From contig NZ_AUCA01000020.1 of assembly GCF_000429525.1 (NCBI RefSeq), positions 1 through 64,000 on the forward strand: a DNA stretch of 64,000 nucleotides, written 5' to 3'. This stretch comes from Alicyclobacillus contaminans DSM 17975. GTDB taxonomy: Bacteria > Bacillota > Bacilli > Alicyclobacillales > Alicyclobacillaceae. The notes beneath the pieces are model-generated. The model did no database searches. It was not told the DNA's origin and was given only the letters and a program-made list of their open reading frames with translations. Position numbers and translations under genes: made by a program. Below are positions 19,782 to 50,041 of the stretch, piece after piece (position 1 is the first letter of the stretch; each line of letters opens with the position of its first letter).

Positions 19782-19865
19782 ACACACCGGCCCGGGCGCC
19801 GCCTTCACAGATTGGCATGGACCTCCCCATCACCGCATAGCAATCTCACAGGTGAGGTGTTGTCC

Positions 19866-20801
19866 ATGTGGATTCACTTGCTGATGGCAGGACTGTCCCT
19901 GTTTACATTTCTTGGAGGCCTGCGAGTCATGCGACAGGGCCTGGAAGGGCTCGGAGAAGGTCGATTGCCCCTCCTGTTGCAACGGTTCGCGCGGACGCCG
20001 ACCCGCGGCATTCTCACAGGAACCATTGTGACTGCCCTAATGCAGAGCAGCGCCGCCGTCACCGCCATCTCGGTCGGGCTGGTGGCCAGCGGCAGCCTGT
20101 TATTTCGAGATGCCCTCGGCATTGTCCTGGGCGCCAACGTGGGATCCACTGTTACCCCCCAAATGCTGACCTTTGACCTCTGGCTCGCAGTGATCCCATG
20201 CCTCGGCCTCGGTTTCATCGGAATTGCCAGCCGTCGCCCACGGTTGTACTTCCCGAGCGTCGCGCTGCTCGGTTTCAGCGCCCTCGTCATCGGCCTCGAA
20301 ATGTTGACCACGGCCCTTCAACCGTTGGCCGCATCCGCTTGGTTTCACCACTTGCTGCAAACCGCCGGAATGAATCCACTGCTCGCTGCGGGCGCGGGAT
20401 GTCTGCTGAGCGCCGCCATCCAATCGAGCACGGCCACCACCGTGATCACCATGGCATTGGCGACGCAGGCCCTGATTCCCATGTCCGGTGCCATCTCCAT
20501 CGTCCTCGGAGCCAATGTGGGCACATGCCTCACGTCTGTCCTGGCCGCCGTCGGCCAAACGCGCCCCGCACAGCAGGTGGCGCTGGCTCACGTTCTTCTC
20601 AACATCGGAGGTGTCGCACTCTTCCTGCCGTGCATCGCCCCGTTCACAGAATGGATGACCCATTTGGCCACGTCGCCCGCCCAGCAGATTGCCAACGCCC
20701 ACACGCTGTTCAACATCGTCTGCACGCTGCTCGTATGGCCAGTGACCGGATGGTTCGCCAGGTTGGTGGAACGCTTACTGCCGGACCAGGCTCGGGCCTG
20801 A
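19866..20801 (+). CDS. Na+/phosphate cotransporter family protein (YqeW-like)
   Basis: A 311-residue inner membrane protein made of two inverted NptA-type repeats. Each repeat has a QSS motif (ALMQSSAAVTAISVGL and AAIQSSTATTVITMAL) followed by a GANVGS/GANVGT loop. It has no C-terminal PhoU domain. The ATG at 19866 has GAGGTG six bases upstream. In B. subtilis yqeW lies between yqeV and rpsU, which is this position, so orthology is likely. It is one of the few plus-strand genes and converges on the Nudix-DeoC gene with a 27-base tail overlap. Confidence 0.9.
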   Translation: MWIHLLMAGLSLFTFLGGLRVMRQGLEGLGEGRLPLLLQRFARTPTRGILTGTIVTALMQSSAAVTAISVGLVASGSLLFRDALGIVLGANVGSTVTPQMLTFDLWLAVIPCLGLGFIGIASRRPRLYFPSVALLGFSALVIGLEMLTTALQPLAASAWFHHLLQTAGMNPLLAAGAGCLLSAAIQSSTATTVITMALATQALIPMSGAISIVLGANVGTCLTSVLAAVGQTRPAQQVALAHVLLNIGGVALFLPCIAPFTEWMTHLATSPAQQIANAHTLFNIVCTLLVWPVTGWFARLVERLLPDQARA

Positions 20802-22070
20802 GCTGGTGCCGATGCGCGTGGCGCCAAACCGGAGAAAGTTCAGGGCTTCTTGTTGCGCGCGGACGCCGCCCGCAGCCTTGACACCCAGTTTTCCCTCTGT
20901 GGCCACGGCCATTGCCGCCACGTCGGCAATCTGCGCACCGGTGGCCGCAAATCCCGTCGACGTCTTGACAAAATCCGCTCCCGCGGCCGCCGAGAGCAGC
21001 GATGCCATCACAACCTGAGCCATGGTGAGAAAGTGCGTTTCGAATATCACCTTCAACCGCGCACCGTGCGCATGCGCGGCGGTGGCCGCCGCGGCGATGT
21101 GGCGGTGAACCGTCCAGATATCGTCTTCCCGCATCGATCCGACCGGCAGCACCATATCCACTTCCACTGCGCCATCCTCCGCGACCGCGGCCACCTCAGC
21201 AGCCAGCGCCGAAGGCTGCGCAGCCCCGAGCGGAAACCCAGCCACGGTACATGGGATGACCGAACTGCCGCGGAGTTTCTCGGCAGCCAGCGCCACGTGC
21301 TGCGGATTGATGCAGACCGCCCGCAGGTGATGATCAAGGGCCGCCCGGCAGACGGATTCCACATCCACAGCGCTCGCTTCCGGTTTGAGCAACGTGTGCT
21401 CAATCGCATCCCGCAGCGATGCCAGAGGATTCGCGATGGTGCGCGGCAGCACGACTTCCTCTCCTGACTCTGACAGCACGTCTGAGAGCGCCGCTGCAAT
21501 GTCCGGCGCCACAACGGTCAGTTCGCGGCGAACGGCGCGCACCATCTCCGAAAGCAGCGGCTGCACGGAACGCCACGTCTGTTCCAACGTGTCCGCGTCG
21601 GTCGACGCCGCCAATTGGCGCCACTTCTTATCCCACTGCGCCACGTGCCAGCGCCACAGAACGTCCGCTTTCTCGAAGACCCAGCGCCAATTCGCATAGC
21701 CGTTGGCATCGTGTTTGTCTCTGGCCTCATCCCACGGCAGAAAGTACGCGGCCCGCACTTCCTCCAACTGCGGAGACGGCGTCTCTGTTTCGTCAATTTC
21801 CTCGAGCAAGAACAGGCGCACCTGTTTGCGTATGGTCTCTCCATCCCGTTCCACACGGTATTCCACCCGGCCCAGCGGAGCCAGAATCCGCGCCTCCACT
21901 CCAGTCTCCTCGCGAATTTCGCGGATTGCCGCCAGTTCCCACGTCTCTCCTGGCTCCAGATGGCCCTTCGGAAATGTGACGTGCCCATAGCTGTCATCAA
22001 TCAACAACACTTCCGGCCCGGCTGGTGTCCTGCGAACCACCAGGCCTCCCGCCGCACGTTCAATTCGCAC
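20775..22070 (-). CDS. Nudix hydrolase - deoxyribose-phosphate aldolase fusion
   Basis: A 431-residue two-domain protein. Residues about 1-130 form a Nudix domain with an intact Nudix box (GHLEPGETWELAAIREIR, then EETGV; residues 36-58). Residues about 130-215 are a helical linker of no known family. Residues about 216-431 are a DeoC aldolase with VEVDMVLPVG (Asp 305), the Schiff-base lysine in DFVKTSTGF (Lys 369) and the second lysine in GVKAAGG (Lys 398). DeoC cleaves 2-deoxyribose-5-phosphate to acetaldehyde and glyceraldehyde-3-phosphate. The GTG start shares its G with the mtaB TAG and has GGAGGTG eight bases upstream. A separate deoC near yqeV-yqeW is known in related bacteria; the fusion is the odd part. 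Confidence 0.93.
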   Translation of the reverse strand: MRIERAAGGLVVRRTPAGPEVLLIDDSYGHVTFPKGHLEPGETWELAAIREIREETGVEARILAPLGRVEYRVERDGETIRKQVRLFLLEEIDETETPSPQLEEVRAAYFLPWDEARDKHDANGYANWRWVFEKADVLWRWHVAQWDKKWRQLAASTDADTLEQTWRSVQPLLSEMVRAVRRELTVVAPDIAAALSDVLSESGEEVVLPRTIANPLASLRDAIEHTLLKPEASAVDVESVCRAALDHHLRAVCINPQHVALAAEKLRGSSVIPCTVAGFPLGAAQPSALAAEVAAVAEDGAVEVDMVLPVGSMREDDIWTVHRHIAAAATAAHAHGARLKVIFETHFLTMAQVVMASLLSAAAGADFVKTSTGFAATGAQIADVAAMAVATEGKLGVKAAGGVRAQQEALNFLRFGATRIGTSSGPSLVRQ

Positions 22071-23500
22071 TACGCATGCACCTCCGTTGTACAAGTCCAC
22101 TCGTCAACCACGGTCGCATCGACTTCGGCCGTGGTGACCTGATCTTCAAATCGTCCAATTTGCAGTTTCCCCCCAGGCTCATCCAGCGCCACACGGCAGA
22201 CCTCACCGATGAGCGACTCCGGCTTTATCCCGGAGGGCACGGGAAACGCGAACTTCAGATAGTTGTCCGCGTGGCCGGTGAGCCAATATCCCGGTTGGTT
22301 GGCGGGCCCTTGGCCAGGTGGTGTTTTTCGCACCTCGTCGTGATACGGTTCCTCCACCACCACTTCGAACAAAGACCCTCGCTGTGCTGCGGCGTACGCC
22401 GTGGTGAGCGCTTCCGACAGTTCAATCAACCGATGCACTCGCGCTTCTTTCACAGGTTCCGGAACCTGGTCCGGGAACTTGGCCGCCGGAGTACCTTTGC
22501 GCGGAGAGTACGGAAATACGTGCAGCTGGGCGAACCGCTGACTCCGGATGAACGCCTCGGTGGCCTCGAAGTATTCGTCCGTCTCCCCGGGAAACCCGAC
22601 AATCACGTCGCTGGTGATGGCCACATCCGGCAGCGCACGACGTAATTTGTCCAATTTGTCGGCGTAGTCCTCCACCGTGTAATGGCGATTCATGCGGCGA
22701 AGCACCTGGTTGTGGCCTGCCTGCAACGGAATGTGTAGATGTTTGCAGACCTTTGTGGACTGCCCCAGGACATGGATGAGCTCGTCGTCGACCTCGCTCG
22801 CTTCGATGGAACTGATGCGCACCCGATACAGTTCCGGAATGCCTTCCAGATCGCGAAGCAGATGCGCCAATCGGTATCCCTGAAGGTCCGCGCCATATCC
22901 TCCGGTATGAATTCCGGTGAGCACGATTTCACGGTAACCCGCCTTCGCCAATTTGCGAGCCTGTTGCAGAATATTCTCCGGCTTCCGGCTGCGGATCAGT
23001 CCTCGGGCGTACGGAATGATGCAAAACGTGCAGAAATTGTTGCATCCGTCCTGAATTTTCAAGTTGGCGCGCGCGCGATCTTCGAAAAACGGCACGTCCA
23101 TTTCTTCGAATTCTTTGGTCTTCAGGATATTGCCCACGGACTGATAAGGATGCTGCTCTCGCTGCACCTGTTCCACCAACTGGACAATCTGCGATTTTCG
23201 ATCGTTCCCGACCACCAAATCCACGCCGTGGATGGCCGCCACTTCCTCCGGCGCGATTTGCGCGTAACATCCGGTCACCACCACTGTGGCATCAGCGTTG
23301 GTCCGGACTGCCCGCCGAATCATTTGCCGCGACTTTTTGTCGCCTGTATTCGTAACCGTGCAGGTGTTGATCACATACACGTCCGCTTTTTCTTCAAACG
23401 GCACCTGCTCATAGCCGCTCGCCTTAAACATCCGCCAGATGGCTTCGGTGTCGTAAAAGTTGACCTTGCAACCCAAGGTGTGAAACGCCACCGTCGGCAT
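22070..23500 (-). CDS. mtaB: tRNA N6-threonylcarbamoyladenosine (t6A37) methylthiotransferase MtaB
   Basis: A 476-residue radical-SAM enzyme that adds a methylthio group to t6A37 in tRNAs. The N-terminal UPF0004 domain has VAFHTLGCKVNFYDTEA, INTCTV and VVTGCYAQ (three cluster cysteines). The radical-SAM motif is CNNFCTFCIIPYARG. A C-terminal TRAM domain follows. The ATG is preceded by GGGAGGATGAGCGGAG. It follows rsmE by six bases. Confidence 0.95.
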   Translation of the reverse strand: MPTVAFHTLGCKVNFYDTEAIWRMFKASGYEQVPFEEKADVYVINTCTVTNTGDKKSRQMIRRAVRTNADATVVVTGCYAQIAPEEVAAIHGVDLVVGNDRKSQIVQLVEQVQREQHPYQSVGNILKTKEFEEMDVPFFEDRARANLKIQDGCNNFCTFCIIPYARGLIRSRKPENILQQARKLAKAGYREIVLTGIHTGGYGADLQGYRLAHLLRDLEGIPELYRVRISSIEASEVDDELIHVLGQSTKVCKHLHIPLQAGHNQVLRRMNRHYTVEDYADKLDKLRRALPDVAITSDVIVGFPGETDEYFEATEAFIRSQRFAQLHVFPYSPRKGTPAAKFPDQVPEPVKEARVHRLIELSEALTTAYAAAQRGSLFEVVVEEPYHDEVRKTPPGQGPANQPGYWLTGHADNYLKFAFPVPSGIKPESLIGEVCRVALDEPGGKLQIGRFEDQVTTAEVDATVVDEWTCTTEVHA

Positions 23501-49447: not shown

Positions 49448-50041
49448 CTAGCGCGCCTGGGGCGCCTGTGTCAAGCGTTCCCACAACTCGTTGCGCGCCA
49501 TCACCGTCAATGGAAATATCGGTTGATGCGTCAGAATCAGATACTGCAGTGTATTGTCGAAGGAAGCCGCCACCGCCTGATCCAGGTCGGACTCCGCCAG
49601 TGTCCGAATGTGATCCACGCCGGGGTACACCCGCCCGCGTTCAATCCCATCCGCCAAGTACAGGATTTTCTCCAGCATGGACATGCCCGGGCGTCCGGTG
49701 GTGTGATACCGGATGGCGTTGAGCACGTCTTCATTGTCGATGCCGAACCAGCGCGCCGCGAAATGAGCCGCCACCGGGCCGTGCAGCAGCGCCGGAATGG
49801 AGGCAAAACCGCTCGGCAAATCAATTTCCTCGGCAATTTGGGTCAGACGCTCCAGCGGCCACTCCCGAGCCAAGTCGTGCATCCAGGCCGCGCAGCGCGC
49901 ATCCGCCACATTGACGCCAAAACGCCGCGCCAACGCGTCCGCCATCTCCACCACGCCCACCACATGGTCATAGCGGGCTTCGGACATTTCCGCCCGAACT
50001 TTATCCATCCACAGCTGTTCGTCAAGTACCCGTTCATCCAC
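49448..50041 (-). CDS. yqeK: HD-domain protein YqeK (symmetrical Ap4A hydrolase type)
   Basis: 197 residues with HD-domain motifs: RYDHVVGVVEMADALARRFG, CAAWMHDLAREW, LLHGPVAAHFAARWFG, AIRYHTTGRPGMSMLEKILY and LADGIERGR. Family members hydrolyse Ap4A to two ADP using a metal centre, so a role in alarmone clearing is likely. GTG 50041 is chosen from family length; a GTG at 50074 overlapping the nadD TGA is an alternative. Confidence 0.9.
   Translation of the reverse strand: MDERVLDEQLWMDKVRAEMSEARYDHVVGVVEMADALARRFGVNVADARCAAWMHDLAREWPLERLTQIAEEIDLPSGFASIPALLHGPVAAHFAARWFGIDNEDVLNAIRYHTTGRPGMSMLEKILYLADGIERGRVYPGVDHIRTLAESDLDQAVAASFDNTLQYLILTHQPIFPLTVMARNELWERLTQAPQAR

Follow-up and report, generated by a model that had tools for sequence, protein, structure and literature searches.

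A Nudix hydrolase fused to deoxyribose-phosphate aldolase downstream of mtaB in Alicyclobacillus contaminans and its recurrence in Bacilli

The DNA analysed here, referred to as the window, is a stretch of 64,000 nucleotides from Alicyclobacillus contaminans DSM 17975. On its minus strand, the window encodes a protein of 431 residues that combines a Nudix hydrolase domain with a deoxyribose-phosphate aldolase (DERA, the product of deoC). The relevant features are as follows.

19812–20801, plus strand: Na/Pi symporter gene, convergent with the fused gene and a conserved neighbour
20775–22070, minus strand: nudix-deoC fused gene (GTG start, TAA stop, 431 amino acids), defined by its open reading frame, Pfam and TIGR00126
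20778–21419, minus strand: DERA domain, residues 218–431, with D305, K369 and K398 intact
21420–21656, minus strand: helical linker, residues 139–217, fast-evolving and with no Pfam match
21657–22070, minus strand: Nudix hydrolase domain, residues 1–138, with the Nudix box at residues 36–58
22070–23500, minus strand: mtaB, encoding tRNA t6A37 methylthiotransferase, the stop of which overlaps the start of the fusion by one base

The order of genes is dnaJ-prmA-rsmE-mtaB-[fusion]-Na/Pi symporter-rpsU, with the symporter gene on the opposite strand, followed by a gene that, from its position after rpsU, we take to be YqeY-like. The 3' ends of the fused gene and the symporter gene share 27 bp (20775–20801), and in relatives, too, the two genes converge closely. 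The fused frame opens with a GTG at 22070, the G of which doubles as the third base of the mtaB stop codon, TAG, and GGAGG lies about 10 bases 5' of this start, within mtaB; the frame then runs for 431 codons, with no internal stop, to a TAA at 20775–20777. The tie between this start and the mtaB stop, which had been pointed out in the original prediction, holds for the window, and the two genes are close in many genomes, but the one-base overlap itself is not conserved, the spacing in relatives ranging from a slight overlap to over 1 kb.

The nudix-deoC gene is a genuine fusion in which the catalytic residues of both domains are intact. The original prediction had placed the two domains in one frame of 431 residues, without naming the strand, which is the minus strand, and had listed a complete Nudix box together with Asp 305, Lys 369 and Lys 398; the translation and the alignments of relatives agree with it on each of these points. 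A missed stop, a sequencing error or a chance frame can be rejected because all 41 Alicyclobacillaceae-like genomes sampled contain the Nudix half in the same single open frame and at the same locus, mtaB–Nudix–DeoC–(Na/Pi symporter)–rpsU, with a recognisable DeoC half in 40 of the 41. Judged by the fusion protein, the closest named relative is Alicyclobacillus pomorum, with 67% identity.

The AlphaFold2 model of the whole chain has a mean pLDDT of 91.6 and a pTM of 0.92. Between the domains, it contains helices at residues 126–143, 146–151, 159–187 and 189–198, mostly with pLDDT above 90, so that the previously noted stretch of unassigned helix is predicted to be a folded module of about 80 residues. 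No known domain (Pfam) and no solved relative was found for this linker, and structural searches with the whole model and with residues 1–215 were dominated by matches to the known domains. In fusions outside the Alicyclobacillus family, the linker is short or absent. A GTG at residue 207 (about 21450, minus strand), preceded by AGGAG, lies just ahead of the DeoC half and is a possible internal start. As a conserved start for a free DeoC, it can be dismissed: it is not kept across the family, where any candidate is present in 10 of 40 cases and at varying positions.

Both the Nudix box and the Nudix fold identify the N-terminal half as a Nudix hydrolase. The Pfam NUDIX profile matches residues 10–122 (E 9e-18, 65 bits), all positions of the box GX5EX7REUXEEXGU are present, and the structural matches display the same fold. 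The best sequence matches are the Ap4A hydrolase of A. aeolicus (59 bits) and Ndx1 of T. thermophilus (about 55 bits), the next one scoring 32 bits, and the structural ranking is led by the same A. aeolicus enzyme, followed by MutT1 and T. thermophilus Ndx1; the best scores of ADP-ribose and ADP-sugar pyrophosphatases are near 20 bits. Sequence comparison places this half nearest to the Ap4A/Ap6A hydrolase subfamily, as its closest characterised relatives hydrolyse ApnA, whereas the score against the full-length NCBIfam equivalog for MutT1 is 41.6 bits, far below the cut-off of 475, with the match confined to the Nudix part. The Nudix half is probably a pyrophosphohydrolase, akin to Ap4A/Ap6A hydrolases and MutT1, and probably clears dinucleoside polyphosphates or damaged (d)NTPs. 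This predicted substrate range is the weakest point of our interpretation. A yqeK gene is located in the same window (49490–49996, minus strand; TIGR00488, 162 bits), and YqeK is a known family of Gram-positive Ap4A hydrolases (PMC7705103). Given that this usual Ap4A hydrolase of Bacillota is also encoded, the Nudix half may act on another substrate.

The C-terminal half corresponds to DERA. This textbook and industrial enzyme, which has been studied as a free-standing protein, converts deoxyribose 5-phosphate (dR5P) to glyceraldehyde-3-phosphate and acetaldehyde. Pfam DeoC matches residues 228–414 (E 5e-17), and the score against TIGR00126 is 193.2 bits, above the cut-off of 117.3, as expected of a deoC equivalog. 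The catalytic Asp (D305), the Schiff-base Lys and the second Lys (K369 and K398) align with those of all relatives with a live aldolase half, and the DERA TIM-barrel fold is recovered with Z of about 26–33 against many solved DERAs. No second DeoC was found in the A. contaminans genome (3.27 Mb), in which the DeoC half of the fusion is the only one. Elsewhere, this genome carries deoB and pdp, the genes for phosphopentomutase and pyrimidine-nucleoside phosphorylase; it is therefore plausible that deoxynucleosides are degraded all the way to glyceraldehyde-3-phosphate, with the fusion protein catalysing the last step.

The original prediction suggested that the product of the Nudix half could be channelled into dR5P metabolism. 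The assignments above do not bear this out: the nearest Nudix relatives release nucleotides, and the halves are separable. Because the products of Ap4A/Ap6A hydrolases and of MutT1 do not feed DERA directly, direct channelling is unsupported; the path from a deoxynucleotide to dR5P still requires release of the nucleoside and the action of Pdp, a phosphorylase, and of DeoB, a mutase. For dR5P to be freed by the Nudix half and handed straight to the aldolase, a substrate such as a deoxyribose-containing dinucleotide would be needed, and we know of no common cellular compound of this type. With the Nudix half distant from the ADP-ribose and ADP-sugar pyrophosphatases, and nothing beyond the co-occurrence of two domains with intact sites speaking for such a transfer, we consider it highly improbable. 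A looser coupling within one pathway would not involve channelling: the Nudix half would turn damaged or surplus dNTPs into dNMPs, the deoxyribose of which would end up as dR5P to be removed by the DeoC half, so that the fusion would bring together the steps with which the disposal of deoxynucleotides begins and ends. The presence of MutT1, a sanitiser of 8-oxo-(d)GTP, among the closest structures, the recurrence and specificity of the fusion, and the presence of deoB and pdp are all compatible with this scheme. However, three enzymatic steps separate the two reactions, the Nudix sequence is nearest to Ap4A/Ap6A hydrolases rather than dNTPases, and each half exists without the other, so we regard the coupling as possible but doubtful.

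The original prediction had proposed a search for the Nudix plus DeoC architecture across Bacillales; across Bacilli, this architecture is universal in the sampled Alicyclobacillus family and, elsewhere, recurrent, with the two parts variably fused or adjacent. The order is represented in the sample by one more family, f2, in which 15 of 18 genomes have the fused gene, the two domains following each other with hardly any linker. In a class-wide draw, the Nudix gene was detected in 81 of 151 genomes: in 39, the most frequent arrangement, DeoC is adjacent on the same strand, in 19, the two are fused, and in 23, there is no DeoC nearby; the Nudix gene is also found in genomes without any DeoC. 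Conversely, in other Bacilli, mtaB is followed at this locus by DeoC without the Nudix gene, and a profile search for a divergent Nudix domain hidden at these DeoC-only loci yielded none. Fusions are present in families f1, f2, f18, f23, f26, f28 and f31. On a tree of the joined Nudix and DeoC sequences, the fused and adjacent states changed at least seven times, although this was a quick tree with many weak branches and changes were counted without direction. No fusion was seen in the genomes of other classes in a 109-genome sample of the phylum. In another family of the phylum, DeoC domains are embedded in frames of 537 and 584 codons (G245:C9:247892-248524 and G283:C8:60045-60674), possibly a different DeoC fusion.

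The gene ahead of the fusion provides a comparison. Unfused Nudix-DeoC pairs are separated by a median gap of 25 bases and mtaB-Nudix pairs by a median of 31.5 bases; nevertheless, mtaB and Nudix share one frame in none of 90 cases as against 65 of 93 for Nudix and DeoC, these counts being of non-independent events. Seven changes between the fused and adjacent states against none for mtaB-Nudix suggest that the joining of Nudix and DeoC is favoured or specially tolerated; if mtaB does not tolerate a C-terminal fusion, this control would be weakened. Mere adjacency could also ease the loss of the stop codon and leave a joined protein that is simply tolerated, as the short gaps in unfused pairs and the internal start sites retained in some fusions would allow. 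The absence of mtaB-Nudix fusions despite similar spacing, and of any re-splitting among the 41 family genomes, runs counter to such a neutral origin. Taken as the full explanation, we hold it to be rather unlikely, but the recurrence of the fusion could be partly neutral. Of the seven fusions sampled from families other than f1 and f2, four (L059, L109, L111 and L112) keep a Shine-Dalgarno sequence and a start codon at the old deoC start. Simple loss of the Nudix stop would leave such a trace, and, to judge from these signals, internal initiation in the fused frame might yield a free DeoC in these cases.

The description of the fusion as one that has not decayed is valid for the A. contaminans protein but not for four of its relatives. 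In G002 (K369I, K398M), G012, G048 and G052, the catalytic lysines of the DeoC half are lost, and the Nudix box and the open frame are intact. A second DeoC with intact motifs is encoded in G002, G048 and G052 and is missing in G012; thus, a second copy accompanies the dead half in three of four genomes compared to five of 52 with a live half (Fisher p 0.0075, kinship ignored). In G012, the C-terminal half of the fused frame (L044) has decayed beyond recognition by Pfam DeoC. These observations raise the alternative that the DeoC half also supports the Nudix half as a scaffold or regulator, such that its fold matters even without aldolase activity. In crude neutral simulations, 2.6 to 6.2 stops were expected, and the probability of observing none was 0.065 for G002, 0.005 for G048 and 0.015 for G052, so that the open frames with dead DeoC fit a fold kept for another reason; a late or recent loss of function is also compatible with them. 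Moreover, as G048 and G052 are sisters, the losses amount to only about three independent events; the DeoC halves of G012, G048 and G052 evolve much faster than the Nudix halves in the same proteins (39% vs 71% identity in G048/G052, 32% vs 64% in G012); and the Nudix gene lacks a DeoC partner in other Bacilli. On balance, we find a scaffold or regulatory role unlikely. The broader notion of an undescribed partnership, in which a Nudix hydrolase is held or regulated by a DERA domain whether or not the latter is catalytically alive, with fusions repeatedly favoured and the fold outlasting the chemistry, appears to us slightly less likely still.

Because hydrolysis of Ap4A, Ap6A or (d)NTPs yields no dR5P and the halves live apart, two independent active sites are favoured. 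The explanation that we prefer, and consider fairly probable, is that of a bifunctional protein in which each half has an active site of its own and which arose by loss of the stop codon between co-directional neighbours, the benefit lying elsewhere than in the transfer of an intermediate. Under this explanation, the C-terminal half, the only dR5P aldolase of the cell, would carry out the last step of deoxynucleoside breakdown, with dR5P supplied by Pdp and DeoB, and the Nudix half would clear dinucleoside polyphosphates or damaged (d)NTPs independently of the aldolase. In the ancestral state, nudix and deoC would have followed mtaB as two co-directional neighbours and would have become joined when the stop codon of nudix was lost, in the Alicyclobacillus family with the helical module of about 80 residues in between. 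DERAs form dimers or tetramers (PMC8403123). The likely benefit would be production of the two enzymes at a fixed 1:1 ratio combined with DERA-driven oligomerisation, with no direct hand-over of an intermediate. Since the halves occur apart in many genomes, any such benefit is not essential.

The original prediction had raised the possibility that the architecture is already common and characterised. Common it is, but no publication on a Nudix-DeoC fusion was found in the open-licence literature, where this new combination of two well-known, ordinary enzymes is apparently undescribed. The recurrent and specific fusion hints that, in Bacilli, the breakdown of deoxynucleosides has an unrecognised link with the clearing of dinucleotides or of the nucleotide pool, and the conserved neighbourhood together with the natural dead-aldolase variants makes this link directly testable. 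Several of the fused forms come from Alicyclobacillus, a genus noted for members that thrive in heat and acid, and may be useful as DERAs.

Among known systems, a precedent for the clustering or fusion of a nucleotide hydrolase with an enzyme of nucleotide metabolism in Gram-positive bacteria is the NadD-YqeK fusion of mycoplasmas, for which proofreading and MutT-like roles have been reported (PMC9426524). That protein joins an HD-domain hydrolase to NAD synthesis rather than a Nudix hydrolase to an aldolase, and its hydrolase clears an error of the partner, a role with no obvious counterpart for DERA. The solved DERAs of Geobacillus (8qps) and Bacillus halodurans (BH1352, 6d33), which are 46% and 44% identical to the DeoC half over the domain, share its fold (Z about 32) and its catalytic Asp and Lys pair. 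The view of DeoC as a single-domain enzyme fits these and the other known DERAs, which are free-standing, but not the fusion, in which a second enzyme precedes DERA in the same chain; the fused DeoC domain also scores lower against TIGR00126 (193–195 bits) than free full-length copies in related genomes (218–299 bits). The Nudix half finds both its best sequence match and its best structural match in the Aquifex aeolicus Ap4A hydrolase (3i7u), with the Thermus thermophilus Ndx1 Ap6A hydrolase (1vc8) among the best sequence matches; both have a complete Nudix box and about a third of their residues identical to the Nudix half but, unlike the fusion, are single-domain proteins of 126–134 residues. 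In mycobacterial MutT1, an 8-oxo-(d)GTP phosphatase and diadenosine polyphosphatase, a similar Nudix domain is likewise joined to a second domain; in the fusion, this position is taken by an aldolase.
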